Shown here: piece after piece, positions 518 to 14,236 of the stretch | Position numbering within the stretch: position 1 is the stretch's first letter | Layout of the letters: each line of letters opens with the position of its first letter | Source of the DNA: a bacterium | Lineage (GTDB): Bacteria; Thermosulfidibacterota; Thermosulfidibacteria; Thermosulfidibacterales; Thermosulfidibacteraceae | DNA: 15,854 bases | NCBI GenBank assembly: GCA_027022065.1 | Contig: JALVZS010000190.1 | Location: 1 to 15,854, forward strand | Direction: 5' to 3' | Made by a program: the position numbers and the translations under genes | The notes under the pieces: generated by a model | The model's input: only the letters and a program-made list of their open reading frames with translations | Database searches by the model: none | What the model was told of the DNA's origin: nothing

Positions 518-1569
518 TAGCGGGAGGGGGAACTGGGGGCCACTTCTTCCCCGCATTGGAAATAGCCAACAGCTTGGCAAAGAAAGGTGACAAGGTCACT
601 TTTATCGGCGTAAAAAGAGGAATAGAGGCAAAACTTGCTCCTCAGAAGGGTCTTCCCATAAGGTTCATTCCCTTTGAGGGAATTAGGGGAAGGGGGGCTA
701 TAGCCCTTTTAAAGGGACTTATAAAGCTTCCCATCTCGGTGGCCATATGCATTAAGAGCATAAAAGATTTCTCTCCAAACGGGGCAATAATCACAGGTGG
801 ATACACCTCTTTTCCCCTTGCTGTGGCCTGTATAATAGCAGGTGTCCCCTTCTTTGTTCACGAGCAGAACAGCGTGCCTGGCTGGAGCAACTTACTGGTC
901 TCTCCATTTGCCAAAAGGGTGTGGGTGAGCTTTGAGGAGAGCTTAAAATACTTTAAAAAATGTAGGGTAAAGCTTATGGGAAATATCGTGAGATCTCAGA
1001 TACTTAACGGACACTTTCCTTTAAGGCTTCATCCCTTCACGCTGCTGGTTGTGGGAGGGTCAAGGGGAGCAAAAAGCATAAACAAAGCTATGATAGAAGC
1101 TGCACCTCATCTTGCAAGTCTGCATATAAGACTGATCCATCAGACAGGCGAGGAGGATAGAGAGGAAGCAGAAAATACTTACAAAAGGGCAAAAATTAAA
1201 GCAAAGGTAAGGGCCTTCATAGAAGACATGCCCTCTGCCTATAGGGAAGCAACCTTTGTTTTATGCCGAGCGGGAGCTACAACATTGTTTGAGTTATCAT
1301 CTGTGGGAAGGGGGGCAATACTTGTTCCTTACCCCTTTGCCGTAGGTGACCATCAGAAGCTGAATGCTCAGGTGCTGGAGAGAAGAAAAGCGGCCCTGGT
1401 AATTGACAATCGGGACTGCACAGGGGAAAACTTAATAAGGAAGCTTCTTCCCATTTTCTTCAACAGGCGCCTTTGCATGGCCATGGGAAGAAGGATGAAG
1501 AGAGCCCTTAAACCCTGCAGAGGAGAAATGCTGGCAGAAGAGGTGAAACGTGAACTTCCCCTACCGTAA
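505..1569 (+). CDS. murG: UDP-GlcNAc:undecaprenyl-PP-MurNAc-pentapeptide GlcNAc transferase (MurG)
   Basis: MurG makes lipid II from lipid I by transferring GlcNAc on the inner face of the cytoplasmic membrane. The 354-residue length is normal. It has the two-lobe GT-B layout: an N-terminal glycine loop GGGTGGH (residues 7-13), ITGGYTSFP (about 96-104) and HEQNSVPG (119-126) for acceptor binding, then the C-terminal UDP-GlcNAc lobe with VVGGSRGA (182-189), CRAGATTLFE (254-263) and VPYPFAVGDHQ (274-284). The TTG start is chosen because of the AAGGAG 6 nt upstream and because the protein then begins MRWLIAGGGT, exactly where the family starts. It overlaps murD by 13 nt and murC by 20 nt, which indicates translational coupling. 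Confidence 0.97.
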   Translation: MRWLIAGGGTGGHFFPALEIANSLAKKGDKVTFIGVKRGIEAKLAPQKGLPIRFIPFEGIRGRGAIALLKGLIKLPISVAICIKSIKDFSPNGAIITGGYTSFPLAVACIIAGVPFFVHEQNSVPGWSNLLVSPFAKRVWVSFEESLKYFKKCRVKLMGNIVRSQILNGHFPLRLHPFTLLVVGGSRGAKSINKAMIEAAPHLASLHIRLIHQTGEEDREEAENTYKRAKIKAKVRAFIEDMPSAYREATFVLCRAGATTLFELSSVGRGAILVPYPFAVGDHQKLNAQVLERRKAALVIDNRDCTGENLIRKLLPIFFNRRLCMAMGRRMKRALKPCRGEMLAEEVKRELPLP

Positions 1570-4651: not shown

Positions 4652-5809
4652 ATGAGAGAGGATGTTGAAAGAAAAGAGGCCTTTGAGGTTGTAGACGATA
4701 CATGCCATTCGGGCGCCAAGATAAAGGTTATTGGAGTAGGGGGAGCAGGGTGCAACGCCCTTAACAACATGGTGGAGCATGGCCTTAAAGGGGTGGAGTT
4801 TATAGCCGTTAACACAGACAAGCAGGCCCTCAACAACTGCCGTGGAGGGATAAAGCGCCTTCAGATAGGGGAAAAGATAACAGGAGGGCTGGGAGCAGGC
4901 AGCAACCCTGAAGTGGGAAGAAAAGCGGCGGAGGAGAGCGAAGCAGAGATCATAAAGATACTTGAAGGGGCCGATATGGTGTTTGTAACCGCAGGGATGG
5001 GAGGCGGAACAGGAACAGGAGCAGCTCCAGTTATAGCGGGAATAGCAAAGCAGATGGGAATACTAACGGTTGCAGTGGTGACGAAGCCCTTCTGGTGGGA
5101 GATGAAGCCTAGGATCCTCAACGCAGAAAAGGGTATAGAGATGCTCCAGGACAATGTGGATGCCATGATAGTCATCCAAAACGACAGGGTTGTCAATGAA
5201 GAACTCTCAATGATTCAAGCCTTTAAAAAGGTGGATGATGTTCTAAGGCAAGGTGTCCAGGGAATAACAGACATAATAAACCTTCCGGGATACATAAACG
5301 CAGACTTCAACGATATAAAGAGCATCCTCACCAACAACAGAGGCATGGCACTTATGGCCATAGCCGAAGCTTCAGGAGAAAACAGAAGCGAGGAGGTGGT
5401 AAGAAGGGCACTGGACAATCCACTTCTTGAGAACAAAGACATTAAGGGAGCCAAAGGAATACTGTATAATGTGACATCCAGCGAGAACTTCAAAATATCA
5501 GAGTGGCAGAGGATAGGAGAGCTTATAAAGGAAGAAGTGGGAACAGAAGCTTCCCTTATCTTTGGGTGGGTGCTGGATCCAGAAATGGGAGATAACATCA
5601 GGCTCACCATAATAGCAACAGGATTCAGCAACGAGGTTCAAGCTGTAAAGAGGGAAAGACCTTCCTATGATAAAGAGCTGATATTCAAGAGCGATCTTGA
5701 AAGCTCTGAAAGGATAATAAATCCAAGGCCCTGTGATGAAGAAAGCCCCCTATCGGATATAAAGATACCAGGGCTTCTCTCCAATATTGAAAAGCTCACA
5801 AGCAGGTGA
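4652..5809 (+). CDS. ftsZ: Cell division GTPase FtsZ
   Basis: FtsZ is the tubulin-like GTPase that polymerises into the cytokinetic ring. The 385-residue protein has the nucleotide loop [12 protein letters not shown] (29-40), VNTDKQAL (53-60), the intact tubulin signature [12 protein letters not shown] (115-126), the T7 synergy loop NADFNDIKS (216-224) with its acidic catalytic residues, a short variable linker (about 330-366) and a C-terminal peptide SDIKIPGLL (368-376) resembling the conserved DIPxFLR-type tail that binds FtsA/ZipA-like partners. Some usually conserved stretches are atypical: PFWWEMKPR where PFxFEGxxR is common, and IQNDRV where IPNDRL is common. SD GAGGTGA (4641-4647) precedes the ATG. 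No ftsQ or ftsA lies upstream. Its stop overlaps the next gene by 4 nt (GTGA). Confidence 0.97.
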
Positions 5810-7335
5810 TCTCCCGTAGATTACTGGCACTTTGGAGGAGATACAGGGAAGGGGAAAGGGCCAGCATACATCCTCCGGAAGCTTGGAATATTTCGGTGCT
5901 TTTAGTGTTTCCCAATGTTTACAGCGTTGGTGTATCAAATCTCGGCTTTCAAACAGTTTTTAAGATTTTAAACAAAACCCCAGGCGTTTCTTGTGATCTT
6001 CTTTATCTGCCTGATGAAGAAGCCATCCCATCTCTTGAGGAGGGGCAGGAGCTTTGCTCCTTTTATCTGGAAAGAACCCCCAGGGAGTTTGACATAATAC
6101 TATTTTCCATCAGCTTTGAAAACGACCTCATCAATATAGTTAAGATCCTCAAACTTGCTGGCATACCTCCGCTAAGCTCAGACAGAGACGAAAATTCTCC
6201 TCTCATTATGGGCGGTGGTATTGTTCCCAGCAGCAATCCAGAACCCTTTGCCCCCATATTTGACGCCATCTACTTGGGAGAAGCGGAAGAAATGCTGCCA
6301 AAAGTGATAGCAGACTTTGAAGGCGTATCCAAAAAGGCCTACCTTGAAAAGATATCCAAAATCCCCTGCATCTATGTGCCGCATCTTGTGGAAACAGAAA
6401 ACATAGGGGGTTTTATCATCCCAAAGGTGCAAAAGGTGAGAAACAGATGGAGGGATTTCAAAAAGCTGTCCAACGCTTCTTACATAATAAGCAATTACTC
6501 CCTCTTCAAAAATGCCTTTATTGTTGAGGTATCAAGGGGATGTCCTAGAAAGTGCAAATTTTGTCTTTCATCACATGTTTACTCACCTGTAAGGTTTGTA
6601 GAATCTAAAGCCTTAGAGGCCCTTTTAAATGAAGCACCCACTGAAAAGGTGGGATTTTTAGGAACCTCAGTTTCTGATCACAGAGGGCTTCCTGAGCTGG
6701 TTAAAAAATACTCGGGTAGATTAACTTTTAGCTTTTCATCTTTAAGAATAGACGCACCTGATGAGCTATTCCAAGCGCTTATAAACTCAGGGGCAAAAAC
6801 CCTCACCTTTGGGATAGAGGCAGCAACCGAAAGGTTAAGAAAAGCGATAGGAAAACCTCTTGATGACGAGCTCATATTCCAGAGGATTAAGGAGCTATCT
6901 CCTCATTTTCCCAATCTAAAGCTTTACTTCATGGTGGGGCTACCAGGGGAAAAAGAGGAAGACATAGATGCATTTTCCAGCTTCATAAAGAGGGTAGGGG
7001 AATGCTTTGAGGGAAGGATTTCTCTTAGCATCTCCCCCTTCGTTCCAAAGCCCATGACGCCTTTTGAAAGGGTTCCCTTTGAAGACCTTTCCTCCTTAAA
7101 ATCCAAAATAAGGGCTATAAGAAAAGCCGCATCCGGCATAAAGAGGGTAAGTGTCAACTACGAGCTTCCCAAGTGGTCCCAGGTGCAGGCCCTCATATCA
7201 AGGGGAGACAGAAGGGTGGGGCTTTACTTTGCCAGTGCCATAAAAAGCATAGACAAAGGCGTTTATCTAGAAGCATTGGAAGTAGAAACACTCCCTTGGG
7301 ATTTTTTAAGAAAAGCAGAATCTCTCAATCTCTGA
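5806..7335 (+). CDS. B12-binding-type radical SAM protein (TIGR03960-like), function unknown
   Basis: A 509-residue radical SAM enzyme. The N-terminal region (about 28-170) looks like a cobalamin-binding fold: [21 protein letters not shown], then [12 protein letters not shown], then [16 protein letters not shown] and [12 protein letters not shown]. The radical SAM core starts near 238 with the [4Fe-4S] motif CPRKCKFC (C246, C250, C253), followed by [31 protein letters not shown] and [12 protein letters not shown]. The segment GCPRKCKFC...[10 protein letters not shown] closely follows the TIGR03960 style. In many genomes that family is joined or adjacent to a TIGR03936-type partner near RNase E/G; neither is visible here. 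The GTG start overlaps the ftsZ stop in GTGA, so it is cotranslated with division genes. Substrate and reaction are not deducible. The last 73 nt overlap a convergent gene. Confidence 0.85.
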
Positions 7336-7877
7336 AAGGAAAGATGTGCCTCTTTAGCCGTCTTTTCTAGTGCACTAACTTTATCCTCAACAACCTCGCA
7401 TACCAGAGAAAAGTGCCTTTCCTTTCCTAAAACTACGTTTTCTAATCTTGGTTTAAAGCCCAGCTTCTTTAGAGATGAGACAGCAAGCTCAATATTCTCC
7501 TTCTCTTCGTAAGATCCTGCAAAGACCTTATATTTTCCATCACATCTCATCATCCATGGATCAAGATAAGGAGCCTTCTTTTTGATATACCTCACAATCC
7601 TTAGTGCCTTATGCCTAGGAAATATCCCTACCAAAATCCTTGTAAGAGTAATGGGAGTTTCGGAAACCTCAAGCTTCTTTTTTGTACACATACCAAACAA
7701 ATTTGTTTGATTCTGAGAAGAGAGCCTTATCCTATAAACAAAAAAATTTTTTATCTTACTCTGCGTCTTATTCTGGGTTTCATTTTGCTCGCTTAGCTCT
7801 GCAAGCTTTATAACTTTTGGAGATTCAACTCTTGTGACCTTCTCTTTCTTTTTTTTCTGCAGAAGCCTCTTACCCAC
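7263..7877 (-). CDS. SPOR-like domain protein, probably membrane-anchored; start uncertain
   Basis: From the only canonical in-frame start (GTG at 7877) this is a 204-residue, Lys-rich, AT-rich protein. Residues about 78-150 resemble a SPOR fold: RILVGIFPRHKALRIVRYIKK followed by YKVFAGSYEEKENIELAVSSLKKLGFKP, i.e. two beta-alpha-beta repeats with the G(S/I)(F/Y) signature. SPOR domains bind denuded peptidoglycan in the periplasm, so an anchor is expected. The open frame does continue upstream to about 8033 and encodes an acidic helix (KENLKEILEEVYQERL) and then a hydrophobic run, PLLFFLCLFFFALGVSIPVG, just before the GTG. No ATG/GTG/TTG starts that extension; an ATG at 7993 is in the neighbouring frame (see findings). 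The terminal 73 nt overlap the convergent radical SAM gene. SPOR assignment is moderate; exact function is unknown. Confidence 0.6.
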   Translation of the reverse strand: MGKRLLQKKKKEKVTRVESPKVIKLAELSEQNETQNKTQSKIKNFFVYRIRLSSQNQTNLFGMCTKKKLEVSETPITLTRILVGIFPRHKALRIVRYIKKKAPYLDPWMMRCDGKYKVFAGSYEEKENIELAVSSLKKLGFKPRLENVVLGKERHFSLVCEVVEDKVSALEKTAKEAHLSFQRLRDSAFLKKSQGSVSTSNASR

Positions 7878-7916
7878 AGGTATAGAGACACCTAGGGCAA
7901 AGAAGAAGAGACAGAG

Positions 7917-7948
7917 AAAAAAAAGGAGCGGCCTATTCAGCCGCTCCT
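7917..7948 (-). terminator. Intrinsic terminator of the EF-G gene
   Basis: On the minus strand a perfect 9-bp stem AGGAGCGGC / GCCGCTCCT with a 7-nt loop is followed at once by seven T residues. It begins 56 nt after the EF-G stop codon. It lies inside the upstream open frame of the SPOR-like gene. On the plus strand there is no T run, so it would act only on minus-strand transcripts. Confidence 0.88.
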
Positions 7949-8004
7949 GGTAAACCTCTTCAAGAATCTCCTTAAGATTTTCCTTCCTTGCATCAAAGGC
8001 GATT

Positions 8005-10077
8005 TTACTCAGCCTGGGCCTCCTTGGCCTTCTCTATGATTTCTTTTGCTATCTGGGTAGGAACCTCTTCGTAGTGGGAGAACTCCATGCTATAGGCACC
8101 CCTTCCACCGGTGAGGGATCTTAACTCCGGGGCGTATGTTAAGACTTCGGCCAGAGGGACAAGGGCCTTTATTACCTGGTTTTTGCCCTTGGCCTCAACT
8201 CCCATTATCTTGCCCCTTCTCGCATTGAGATCGCCTATCACATCTCCCACACAGTCATCCGGCACTATAACCTCCATCTTCATGATAGGCTCAAGGAGGA
8301 CAGGTTTAGCCTTCATGGCAGCATCTTTAAAGGCCATGGAGGCAGCTATCTGAAACGCTAGATCCGATGAGTCAACGGGATGGTGCTTCCCATCAAACAG
8401 GGTAACCTTAACATCAACAACAGGATAACCTGCCAAAACCCCGTCCTCCATAGCCTTTCTGACGCCCTTCTCAACAGAGGGGATGTACTGCCTAGGAACA
8501 ACCCCGCCCACTATGGCATCCACAAACTCAAAACCAGCTCCCCTGGGAAGAGGCTCTATCCTTAACCACACAACTCCATACTGCCCCCTTCCACCACTTT
8601 GCGTGATGTATCTTCCCTGGGCCTCTGCCTTACCCTTTATGGTCTCTTTATAGGGCACCTTAGGCTTCTGCAGCTCCACCTCAACGCCGTATCTCTTTTT
8701 CATCTTGTTAACCACGGATTCTATGTGCAGTTGTCCCAGTCCAGATATGAGAAGCTCCTTGGTCTGCGGATCCCTCCTCACATCAAGGGACATATCCTCC
8801 TCAAGCATCCTTTGAAGGGCAGTGGAGATTTTCTCCTCATCGGCGCGGCTTTTGGCCTTAATGGCGTAAGATAGTATAGGCTGTGGGAACTCAATTTCTG
8901 GAAACTTTATGGGGTTTGCAGGATCACAAAGGGTATCCCCCGTTCTTGTCTCCTTGAGCTTCGGGATACCCACTATGTCTCCAGCAACTATCTCAGGTGC
9001 AGGCTCCTGCTCCTTACCGATCATGAAGAAGGGCTTGGAAAGCTTCTCCTTAACATCCCTGTTGGGATTTAGAACCGTGGCATCGGGACTTGCCTTTCCT
9101 GAAAAGACCCTTACTAGAGATATTTTTCCCGCATAGGGATCAGAAACGGTCTTGAAAACAAGAGCAGAAAAGGGCTCATCCACCGTGGGTTTTCTTTCCA
9201 CTTCCTCTCCCGTTTCGGGATTTATTCCCTTTACGGGCGGCCTCTCCTCAGGGGAGGGAAGCAGCTCAACGACCTTGTCCATCAGTAGAGTTACTCCCTT
9301 GTTCTGGATGGCGGATCCCACCATCACGGGAAAAAGGGTTCCGGCAAGTATCGCTTCTTTAAAAGCCGGTATCAGCTCTTCCCTGGTAAGCTCCTCTCCC
9401 TCCAGATACTTTTCCAAAAGCTCATCCTTGGTTTCAGCGATGTTCTCTATCAATGCCTCCCTTGCAGACTCAATGGCGTCCTTCATCTCCTCAGGAGGCT
9501 CTCCTTCCTTCAAAGAGCCGTCCTCAAAGTAGAAGGCCTTTCTTCCAAGAAGATTATATATGCCCACAAACTCCTCACCCTTGATTATGGGAAGCTGTAT
9601 GGGGGTAGGTTTTATCCCTAAACTCTCCTTTATATCCTCAAGGGTGGCTTCAAAGTTGGCATTGGGCTTATCCATCTCGTTTATAAAAATTATCCTGGGG
9701 AGCCCATAGTTATCCATGAGACCCCAGAGCTTTTCCGTTTGCACCTTAACGCCGTCAACTCCTGAGACCAGCACCACAGCACCATCCACAACACGAAGGG
9801 CGCCGTAGGTATCAGATATGAAGTTAGCATATCCGGGGGTGTCTATGAGATTAACCTTGCAGTCCTTCCAGATAAAGTGGGCAACCGCAAGGTTGAGGGA
9901 GCATCCCCTTTCCTTCTCCTCCTCGTCGTAATCCATAACGGTGTTACCATCGGCCACGCTGCCCATTCTGGATATGACACCTGCGTTGAACAGCATGGCC
10001 TCTGCAAGCGTGGTTTTACCAGTTCCACCGTGTGCGAAAAGTCCAACATTCCTTATGCTCTTGTACTTTTGAGCCAT
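8005..10077 (-). CDS. fusA: Elongation factor G-like translational GTPase (EF-G2 type)
   Basis: A full-length 690-residue EF-G-family GTPase; EF-G drives tRNA-mRNA translocation on the ribosome. Domain order: G domain (1-about 270) with P-loop AHGGTGKT (15-22), switch I ERGCSLNL (56-63), DTPGYANF (79-86), NEMD (133-136) and GSAIQNKGV; domain II (about 300-390); domain III (ISGLGQLHIESVV); domain IV (QSGGRGQYGVVWLRIEP, GYPVVDVKV and DGKHHPVDSSDLAFQIA); and domain V (LEPIMKMEVIVPDD...GDLNARRGKIMG). AHGG, Tyr in DTPGY and the switch I sequence differ from canonical EF-G (AHIDAGKT, DTPGH, ERGITI) and match EF-G2-like paralogues. NEMD replaces the usual NKMD. It may therefore be a secondary EF-G rather than the main translocase. 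It has its own promoter, a strong SD (AGGGGGAGGT) and a terminator. Confidence 0.93.
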   Translation of the reverse strand: MAQKYKSIRNVGLFAHGGTGKTTLAEAMLFNAGVISRMGSVADGNTVMDYDEEEKERGCSLNLAVAHFIWKDCKVNLIDTPGYANFISDTYGALRVVDGAVVLVSGVDGVKVQTEKLWGLMDNYGLPRIIFINEMDKPNANFEATLEDIKESLGIKPTPIQLPIIKGEEFVGIYNLLGRKAFYFEDGSLKEGEPPEEMKDAIESAREALIENIAETKDELLEKYLEGEELTREELIPAFKEAILAGTLFPVMVGSAIQNKGVTLLMDKVVELLPSPEERPPVKGINPETGEEVERKPTVDEPFSALVFKTVSDPYAGKISLVRVFSGKASPDATVLNPNRDVKEKLSKPFFMIGKEQEPAPEIVAGDIVGIPKLKETRTGDTLCDPANPIKFPEIEFPQPILSYAIKAKSRADEEKISTALQRMLEEDMSLDVRRDPQTKELLISGLGQLHIESVVNKMKKRYGVEVELQKPKVPYKETIKGKAEAQGRYITQSGGRGQYGVVWLRIEPLPRGAGFEFVDAIVGGVVPRQYIPSVEKGVRKAMEDGVLAGYPVVDVKVTLFDGKHHPVDSSDLAFQIAASMAFKDAAMKAKPVLLEPIMKMEVIVPDDCVGDVIGDLNARRGKIMGVEAKGKNQVIKALVPLAEVLTYAPELRSLTGGRGAYSMEFSHYEEVPTQIAKEIIEKAKEAQAE

Positions 10078-12273: not shown

Positions 12274-12283
12274 ATCAGAGCAG

Positions 12284-12355
12284 GCCGGCGTAGCTCAGCG
12301 GTAGAGCAGCTGACTCGTAATCAGCAGGTCGGCGGTTCAAATCCGCCCGCCGGCT
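12284..12355 (+). tRNA. tRNA-Thr (anticodon CGT)
   Basis: A complete 72-nt cloverleaf folds by eye. The acceptor stem is GCCGGCG / CGCCGGC, the D arm GCTC-AGCGGTA-GAGC, the anticodon stem GCTGA / TCAGC with loop CTCGTAA, the variable loop AGGTC, and the T arm GGCGG-TTCAAAT-CCGCC. Anticodon CGT reads the Thr codon ACG. The discriminator base is T and CCA is not encoded, so CCA must be added after transcription. The 3' half (12321-12355) is antisense to the end of porB. Confidence 0.96.
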
Positions 12356-13127
12356 TTTTAAATCTTTTCTGTAGCCCGTAGTAGAGCTCCACAGGTAAAC
12401 CTTTTGGTTTGTATGTTTCTCTGTATTTGCCCTTTTCCACCTCAAAAAGCCTAACTATTCCGCACTCCACCGCAAGCCTTGCAGCCCTCACCGCAAGGGA
12501 GGGATCCATCCCCCATCCAGTAGGGCAGGGGCAGTGTATCAGTATAAACCTGAAGCCCTTTATAGCCTTGGCCTTAAGCACCTTTGATTTTAGATCCTCT
12601 GGGAAGGCTATTGAGGCCGAGGCGGCGTAAGGAACACCATGCTTAACCAGTATGCCTATTATATCCTTCTTCTCCTCGGGCTTTCCAAGGGGAGTGGTGG
12701 GAGTGACAGAGCCTTTGGGAGTGGAGGAGCTACGCTGTGCTCCTGTGTTCATATAGGCCTCGTTGTCGTAGCATATGTAGAGTATGTCCTCGTTCCTCTC
12801 CGCAGCAGCAGAGAGCAGGCCAAAACCTATGTCATAGGTTGCACCATCTCCTGCCCACACCACAACTTGAGCCTTTTTTGCCTTAAACTCCTGCGCGGCC
12901 CTCATTCCAGTGGCAAAGGCGGCGGCAAAGGCAAAGGGCGTGTGAACCGCAGGAAGTCTAAGGGAGGAGAAGGGATACCTCCCCAGTATTATAGACCAGC
13001 AGCCTGCCGGAATCACAATGCGAGTGCCATCGTCCAGAACAGAGGAAACGATCTTCATGGCAATGGCCGCTCCGCATCCGGCACAGGCGGGATGTCCAGG
13101 ATCAAGTTTGGTCTTTTCTACATCCAT
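12321..13127 (-). CDS. porB: Pyruvate/2-oxoacid:ferredoxin oxidoreductase, beta subunit (PorB)
   Basis: This is the TPP and [4Fe-4S]-binding beta subunit of a 2-oxoacid:ferredoxin oxidoreductase, which decarboxylates pyruvate (or a related acid) to acyl-CoA and reduces ferredoxin. The cluster cysteines fit C15 and C18 (ACAGCG), C43 (AGCW) and C201 or C199 (HCPCPTGW). The TPP motif is [10 protein letters not shown] (92-101) continuing to [18 protein letters not shown] (120-137); that last block is characteristic of the pyruvate-type family. ATG 13127 is chosen over an upstream in-frame start because GGGGGAG lies 7 nt before it; this gives a 10-nt overlap with porA and 268 residues. The last 11 residues ([11 protein letters not shown]) are encoded by the antisense strand of the tRNA-Thr gene, so the natural stop appears to have been lost or the genes have grown together. 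Confidence 0.93.
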
Positions 13128-14236
13128 AAAACATCTCCCCCACAAGAAGTGGCTTTCTTGTAGAAAGCTATTATCCTTTCAGGAGTTAGATCCTTTCCCC
13201 CAAGAGACCCTATAAAGTTCACCACCTTAGCATGGAAAATGCAGGACCTTATCTCCTGCCCCAAGATCCCCATCTTGCCATAGGAAACGGCCCTGTCTAT
13301 AGGAAGCACGAGATCTACATGGGATAAATGTTTAAGAACTTCCATTTCTGGAAAGGGCCTAAAGAGATTTATTTTCAAAAGACCTGCCTTTTCTCCCTGC
13401 CTTCTTAAGATGTTCACTGCCTCCTTTGTAGTGCATGAAGCTGCTCCCATGGCTACAAAGGCACATTCGGCATCCTCAAGCATGTAGCTTTCACAAATAG
13501 AGTAATCCCTTCCTGTAACCTTACTAAATTCAGAAAAGGCATTATTCCAAACATCAATGGCTCTTTTGTGATCCTCAAAGAGCTGCTGCCTTATGGTGTA
13601 GTAGGTGTCTGGATCAGGTATGGGCCATAGGGTAAAGGGATCATCGCCAAAGGCAAGGGGACTCTCAAAAGGCGGCAAAAACTCTCTTACATCCTCCTCT
13701 GAAAGAAGCTCTACGGGTTCTGCGGTGTGGGATATGAGAAAGCCATCCATGCAAACCATGCAGGGTATCATCACCGCTTCCGCCACCCTGTAGGCCAAAG
13801 GTATAAAGTCGTGCACCTCTTGTGCGGTTGAGGCAAAGAGCATCATCCATCCCGTATCCCTCTGGCTCAATGCATCCTGCATGTCAGACATGAGTATCCA
13901 GGGGGCACCGATTCCCCTCGTGGCAACGACCATTACAACGGGAAGCCTTCCGCCCGCTATCCAATGGAGGGCCTCGTGCATGAAGACAAGCCCGTGGGAT
14001 GCCGTTGCAGTGAAGGCCCTTACCCCCTCAATTACGGCACCTGCTGCTATACCTATGGAAGAAAGCTCCGAATCCGTGCATATGTATCGGGCCTTAAGCC
14101 TTCCTTCAGAGACAAACTGGGCAAGTTTCTCTATTATGTGCGTCTGAGGGGTTATAGGGTAAGCCGCAATTACCTTGGGATCCGAAAGCCTGATGGCTTC
14201 AGCCGCTGCATCCGCCCCGGTTATGAGCTTTTTCAT
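13118..14236 (-). CDS. porA: Pyruvate/2-oxoacid:ferredoxin oxidoreductase, alpha subunit (PorA)
   Basis: The alpha subunit of the same oxidoreductase, cytoplasmic, 372 residues (a normal PorA length). It carries the hallmark YPITPQT (26-32), a [14 protein letters not shown] segment with Glu57 where the TPP-activating glutamate is expected, and [24 protein letters not shown], followed by a domain II region ([18 protein letters not shown]...[12 protein letters not shown]) and [10 protein letters not shown] near the C-terminus. It starts in a 4-nt ATGA overlap with the ClC gene and ends 10 nt inside porB. No gamma (porG) or delta ferredoxin-like (porD) gene adjoins, so those subunits, if used, are encoded elsewhere. 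Substrate (pyruvate versus another 2-oxoacid) is inferred from the PorB motif. Confidence 0.94.
13135..13141 (-). promoter_or_regulatory. Ribosome binding site setting the porB start
   Basis: GGGGGAG on the minus strand lies 7 nt upstream of ATG 13127, inside the last codons of porA. It fixes the porB start downstream of the longest possible open frame. Confidence 0.65.

Follow-up and report, generated by a model that had tools for sequence, protein, structure and literature searches.

SPOR domains act outside the cytoplasm, and the SPOR proteins FtsN and DedD have one membrane helix near the N-terminus, followed by a linker. Three described aspects of bacterial gene expression bear on the SPOR-like gene considered here, which follows an EF-G gene. 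Coupled overlapping gene pairs are reported to use termination-reinitiation (PMC10666635); intrinsic terminators within translated RNA can be blocked by ribosomes (PMC5021804); and initiation at non-canonical codons is repressed when IF3 is in excess (PMC2268962). A literature search for attenuators within coding regions found none. The window, meaning the whole stretch of 15,854 nucleotides that was analysed, corresponds to contig C190 in an assembly of 251 contigs and 1.57 Mb. Our main reading of the locus, to which we give a probability of roughly 0.4, is a coupled EF-G-SPOR operon with a ribosome-masked terminator in the N-terminal codons of the second cistron. All of the components are of known kinds, and the combination is mildly unusual but mostly ordinary operon biology.

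On the minus strand the gene for an EF-G-type GTPase (8005..10077; 690 aa; stop TAA at 8007-8005; all EF-G domains above the Pfam gathering scores) comes first and the SPOR-like gene second, the latter converging on a radical SAM gene on the plus strand (5806-7335). The tail-to-tail overlap of these last two genes is 73 nt (7263-7335), and 63 nt at the same place in the relative G002. The comparison set comprised eight other genomes of the same order, and start codons were compared in a sample of these. A membrane-anchored SPOR-like gene directly follows EF-G in five relatives (G002, G003, G005, G007 and G008), with products 17-28% identical to the window protein over their full length. In G004 (locus L098) the EF-G and radical SAM genes are convergent with a 240-nt gap, the SPOR gene apparently having been lost, and among 80 more distant EF-G loci the pairing was represented by one weak match (L062). 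Elsewhere in the window, a plus-strand tRNA-Thr (CGT; 12283-12356) and the 3' end of a minus-strand oxidoreductase ORF (12321-13145) overlap; the ORF ends in GGFEPPTC, which corresponds to the tRNA translated from the opposite strand.

The SPOR frame is open on the minus strand from 8033 to a stop at 7263-7265 and holds no ATG, GTG or TTG between 8033 and the GTG at 7877, as the original prediction had described with correct coordinates and frames. The further claim that the start codon is missing is weakened, having been based on a search for ATG, GTG and TTG only. An in-frame CTG at 8012-8010 (minus strand) lies where the relatives start, 6 nt downstream of a Shine-Dalgarno sequence with a 7-nt match (AAGGAGG, 8019..8025) inside the 3' end of EF-G, a spacing within the 5-9 nt sought. 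The sequence here reads AAGGAGG-CCCAGG-CTG-AGT-AAA-ATC, and the CTG overlaps the EF-G stop, giving an overlap of 8 nt (CTGAGTAA). The relatives' TTG starts are at a near-homologous place, standing directly behind the EF-G TGA in G005, G007 and G008 (TGATTG) and overlapping it in G002 (TTGA), while G003 uses an ATG 10 nt downstream of the EF-G stop; TTG to CTG is a single transition. The distance from start to membrane segment is about 28-32 residues in all five relatives and 28 from the CTG. Alignment of the N-terminus, which is poorly conserved, proved too weak to place the start by itself (p 0.04-0.08 for G002, no match for the others). Judged from these sequence features, translation of the SPOR-like gene probably begins at CTG 8012-8010, which would yield a protein of 249 aa (7263..8012).

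The N-terminal extension created by this start is genuinely coding and includes a membrane anchor. It encodes an acidic stretch and then PLLFFLCLFFFALGVSIPVG, with the membrane segment LLFFLCLFFFALGVSIPVG at residues 29-47 (7872..7928). Its 45 codons have a codon score of 0.30, in the range of genes (0.38, sd 0.19) and away from that of other frames (-0.39, sd 0.19), and none of about 2,100 off-frame windows reached this value. The anchored extension that was originally proposed is thus borne out by its coding score and by the relatives, all five of which have a hydrophobic stretch at the equivalent position. The contrary finding named beforehand, homologues that begin at the GTG and lack the membrane segment, was looked for, and the segment was present in five of five. 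The GTG itself (7875..7877), the formal start of the mechanical ORF, is an unlikely start because the membrane helix that all five relatives keep would be lost. In a sample of the genome, about 1.2% of the non-start codons located near ORF starts have a Shine-Dalgarno match of at least 7 nt before them; no genome-wide Shine-Dalgarno enrichment was found at CTG codons, so starts of this type can be no more than rare in this genome. This was also the only sampled ORF that combined about 50 codons lacking a canonical start with a coding-like score over them and a strong Shine-Dalgarno-CTG pair. Gene callers that accept just ATG, GTG and TTG would trim the anchor, making an envelope protein look like a cytoplasmic fragment.

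The gene after EF-G is probably not broken, and the anomaly can be explained without a sequencing error. Three origins had been offered for it, of which the non-canonical start gains from the Shine-Dalgarno-CTG pair, while a homopolymer error and a frameshift are unneeded and of low prior. That the assembly lacks one nucleotide of the A4 run (7978-7981), and that the true start is the ATG at 7993 (7991..7993), appears improbable. That ATG is one frame off and its own frame ends at a TGA inside the hairpin, as first described. Its position 11 nt past the EF-G stop resembles that of the G003 ATG, the assembly contains at least one probable point error (in the leucyl-tRNA synthetase gene, where a TGA stands in frame in place of a conserved Trp), and a motif profile was unable to tell the SPOR frame from the reading given by the ATG plus one base. 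However, the ATG has no Shine-Dalgarno sequence at a usable distance, the A4 run is a weak error site, and the SPOR frame as it stands extends upstream through a strong Shine-Dalgarno-CTG pair where relatives start. A homopolymer error is moreover unlikely because about 40 orthologous genes compared with G002 held no recognisable frameshift; among 462 sampled genes there was no other frameshift-like coding 5' extension, the one exception lying at the edge of a contig. ATG 7993 could also be joined to the SPOR frame by slippage of the transcript or by programmed frameshifting at the A4 run, to which both frames are open, but A4 is short for slippage, the ATG lacks a Shine-Dalgarno sequence and the relatives start directly in the SPOR frame, which leaves this alternative very improbable. 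Since the assembly probably holds at least one point error, the CTG at 8012 could itself be a misread TTG or ATG, in which case the start site would be unchanged.

Several other irregular reading frames came to light in the same assembly. The leucyl-tRNA synthetase gene (L204, 3253-5736, plus strand, contig C201) has its one in-frame TGA at a tryptophan (KWQKR-TGA-EEAGLF) where none of eight relatives has a stop, which suggests either a private variant or an erroneous base; a single tRNA-Trp was found in the sample, with the anticodon CCA. A peroxiredoxin gene (L177, about 640-1228, plus strand, contig C53) has TGA in frame at the position of its peroxidatic cysteine (YPADFTFV-TGA-PTELAAV) and, judging by sequence, probably encodes a selenocysteine peroxiredoxin. 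A cNMP-binding-like regulator (L150, ORF 6723-7464 in coordinates of the minus strand) reads AAAGGAGGT-AGAG-ATA, with ATG, GTG and TTG absent for about 75 more codons, pointing to an ATA start or a misread ATG. A search for relatives of two other odd-start ORFs found none.

The protein would consist of a cytoplasmic N-terminus, the membrane anchor, a linker and a SPOR-fold domain, a layout drawn from the relatives and the coding score. In the AlphaFold model, residues of about 115-194 (7431..7670) are confident, with pLDDT mostly >80, and adopt the beta-alpha-beta-beta-alpha-beta arrangement of SPOR domains. The best structural matches of the model are the SPOR domains of CwlC (1x60) and RlpA (6i09), both at Z 10.7 against about 7-8 for unrelated rows, and Foldseek matches it to 1x60 with E 1.4e-4. 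The original identification of a SPOR-like protein is upheld by this fold. In sequence the domain is very divergent: the window protein scores 13.3 bits against PF05036, below the Pfam cut-off of 21, and four of the six family members match this profile at E<=1 (best E 1.2e-5). The modelled structure makes the protein SPOR-like by fold, with a putative role in binding denuded peptidoglycan. A SPOR fold implies an exported protein, for which an anchor is needed. The linker directly after the membrane segment also contains an A8 run (CAGAAAAAAAAGAAAG, 7849-7856, minus strand), a possible slippage site.

Within the same N-terminal codons lies a terminator-like hairpin with a 5-nt loop, AGGAGCGGCTGAATAGGCCGCTCCT (7924..7948, minus strand; codons for QERLNRPLL). 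Its stem has nine Watson-Crick, G+C-rich pairs, or ten if the outer A-T pair (7948-7924) is counted, and it is followed immediately by a T8 tract (7917..7924) within the codons for L-F-F. The 9-bp hairpin was as first described, but the T run is of eight residues rather than seven. As RNA, the 56-nt hairpin region folds at -25 kcal/mol, compared with -14.1 (sd 2.6) for shuffled sequences (z -4.15), and the stable G+C-rich stem with its adjoining T-rich tract is the structure of an intrinsic terminator. That the hairpin acts as one is somewhat favoured by these sequence properties.

Whether such a structure could arise by chance was assessed by synonymous re-coding. That the gene starts at CTG 8012 but its hairpin arose by chance through codon choice, or is a weak pause that plays no part in regulation, is somewhat unlikely as an overall explanation, although the peptide ERLNRPLLFF favours G/C-rich arms and a T run, and 0.7% of 20,000 synonymous draws of the first 70 codons yielded a site of similar grade (stem >=8, >=7 T of 8). 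The absence of a hairpin at the corresponding place in G002 also suits coincidence, and among the many genes of a genome one such case would not be astonishing. Re-coding of 569 kb of ORFs speaks against it, giving no such sites in any of eight replicates where two were observed, including the SPOR hairpin; so do the placement of the hairpin just past the EF-G stop and the presence in genus g5 of strong hairpins at the equivalent position. Codon choice alone is, on the sequence evidence, an unlikely yet possible source of the hairpin. In that genus, to which both G005 and G008 belong, the hairpins lie about 70 nt into the gene and reach -21 kcal/mol in G005 (2% of 300 synonymous versions fold as well, p 0.02) and -26 kcal/mol in G008 (0 of 300 as stable, p <0.004); as the two are congeneric, they amount to independent support from one other lineage. 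Of these two only G008 has a reasonable T tract after the hairpin. The structure is unremarkable in G003 and G007, is not terminator-grade in G003, G005 or G007, and is not conserved as sequence among the relatives.

The position of the hairpin, 57-80 nt past the EF-G stop, is usual for this genome, in which 12 strong terminator-like sites were counted in the 674 kb sampled, most of them 16-75 nt after a stop codon. This placement would suit a plain EF-G terminator, with translation of the SPOR-like gene beginning further downstream (at CTG 7940, ATT 7967 or GTG 7877) and its weak expression due to read-through or a promoter of its own, and an AGGAG does precede CTG 7940. Such an arrangement seems rather improbable, given that CTG 7940 and its Shine-Dalgarno sequence lie inside the stem, GTG 7877 would sacrifice the helix found in five of five relatives, the upstream codons score as coding, and no promoter-like site was found upstream on the minus strand in the region searched (7000-8400). 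Two further hairpins near gene starts were seen in this genome. One is a second strong terminator (AGGCCTGCGAG...CTCGCAGGCCT TTTTCTTT; L163, 7803-8334, plus strand) within an open reading frame that continues into the signal peptide of a lipoprotein (FFFIRKVTVVLFSISCVVVVLSGCSS) and has no good start codon past the hairpin. The other is a 13-bp hairpin (CCCAGGTTCCTGC...GGGAACCTGGG; L168, 1329-1358, plus strand) within the opening codons of a gene for a small lipoprotein; it stands 75 nt beyond the stop codon upstream.

In the coupled operon that we prefer, EF-G and the SPOR-like gene would form one transcription unit, with SPOR initiation at the CTG inside the EF-G 3' end through the AAGGAGG. 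Ribosomes ending EF-G probably feed this start across the 8-nt overlap, or else 30S subunits could bind the AAGGAGG directly. In the product, a single membrane helix would separate a short segment in the cytoplasm from a SPOR domain in the periplasm. It had been argued that SPOR expression would depend on initiation within a terminator or read-through of it; translation need not start inside the terminator, since initiation at the CTG is about 64 nt upstream of the hairpin, and the question becomes that of RNA polymerase passage while ribosomes cover the hairpin. The hairpin and T8 tract would constitute an intrinsic terminator within coding sequence. A ribosome initiated at the CTG would cover the 5' arm of the hairpin as RNA polymerase passes, so that transcription continues, whereas failed initiation, which would be frequent at CTG, would let the hairpin form and the transcript end after EF-G. 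The outcome would be SPOR levels much below those of EF-G, set by initiation efficiency. Masking of the hairpin by translation is probable, provided that the CTG is used and the hairpin does terminate. At the level of sequence, this scheme draws on the open coding frame, the Shine-Dalgarno-CTG pair, the synteny and start position in relatives, the SPOR fold and the improbable hairpin; CTG use, termination in vivo and masking by ribosomes are the steps we infer.

Given the effect of IF3 on non-canonical codons, such a switch would respond to initiation conditions. Plainer alternatives to a switch are a constitutive stoichiometry device or coincidence. A more far-reaching proposal, a recurrent attenuator in the EF-G-SPOR operon of the order, written into the codons of the SPOR membrane helix, we consider unlikely. 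If true, Leu and Phe codons would give the T tract, a weak TTG or CTG at the EF-G stop would set ribosome coverage of the hairpin, and envelope-protein output would be tied to translation-initiation capacity. The single locus offers a clean test case for terminators within coding sequence: its T tract comes from T-rich codons of the membrane helix, and the stoichiometry of the operon could be set by its weak start codon.

In its C-terminal fold the window protein resembles the SPOR proteins (PF05036; FtsN, DedD, CwlC, RlpA), and its one N-terminal membrane helix and linker match the layout of FtsN and DedD, but its sequence is very divergent from theirs, and additional strands and a helix surround the SPOR fold. 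The EF-G-SPOR pair, read from the proposed CTG, shares with the coupled pairs of PMC10666635 a start in or at the upstream stop and a Shine-Dalgarno sequence in the upstream 3' end; it differs from them in its 8-nt overlap and in a CTG in place of ATG, GTG or TTG. RNA 3' ends internal to ORFs, some with intrinsic terminator scores, have been mapped in E. coli (PMC7815308) and likewise fall inside coding sequence, whereas the SPOR site is predicted from sequence, lies early in its gene and follows a gene for a translation factor. In the E. coli pyrL leader (PMC5021804) an intrinsic terminator can be blocked by an advancing ribosome, as is proposed here, but where pyrL employs a separate leader peptide, the candidate SPOR terminator occupies the first codons of the structural gene.
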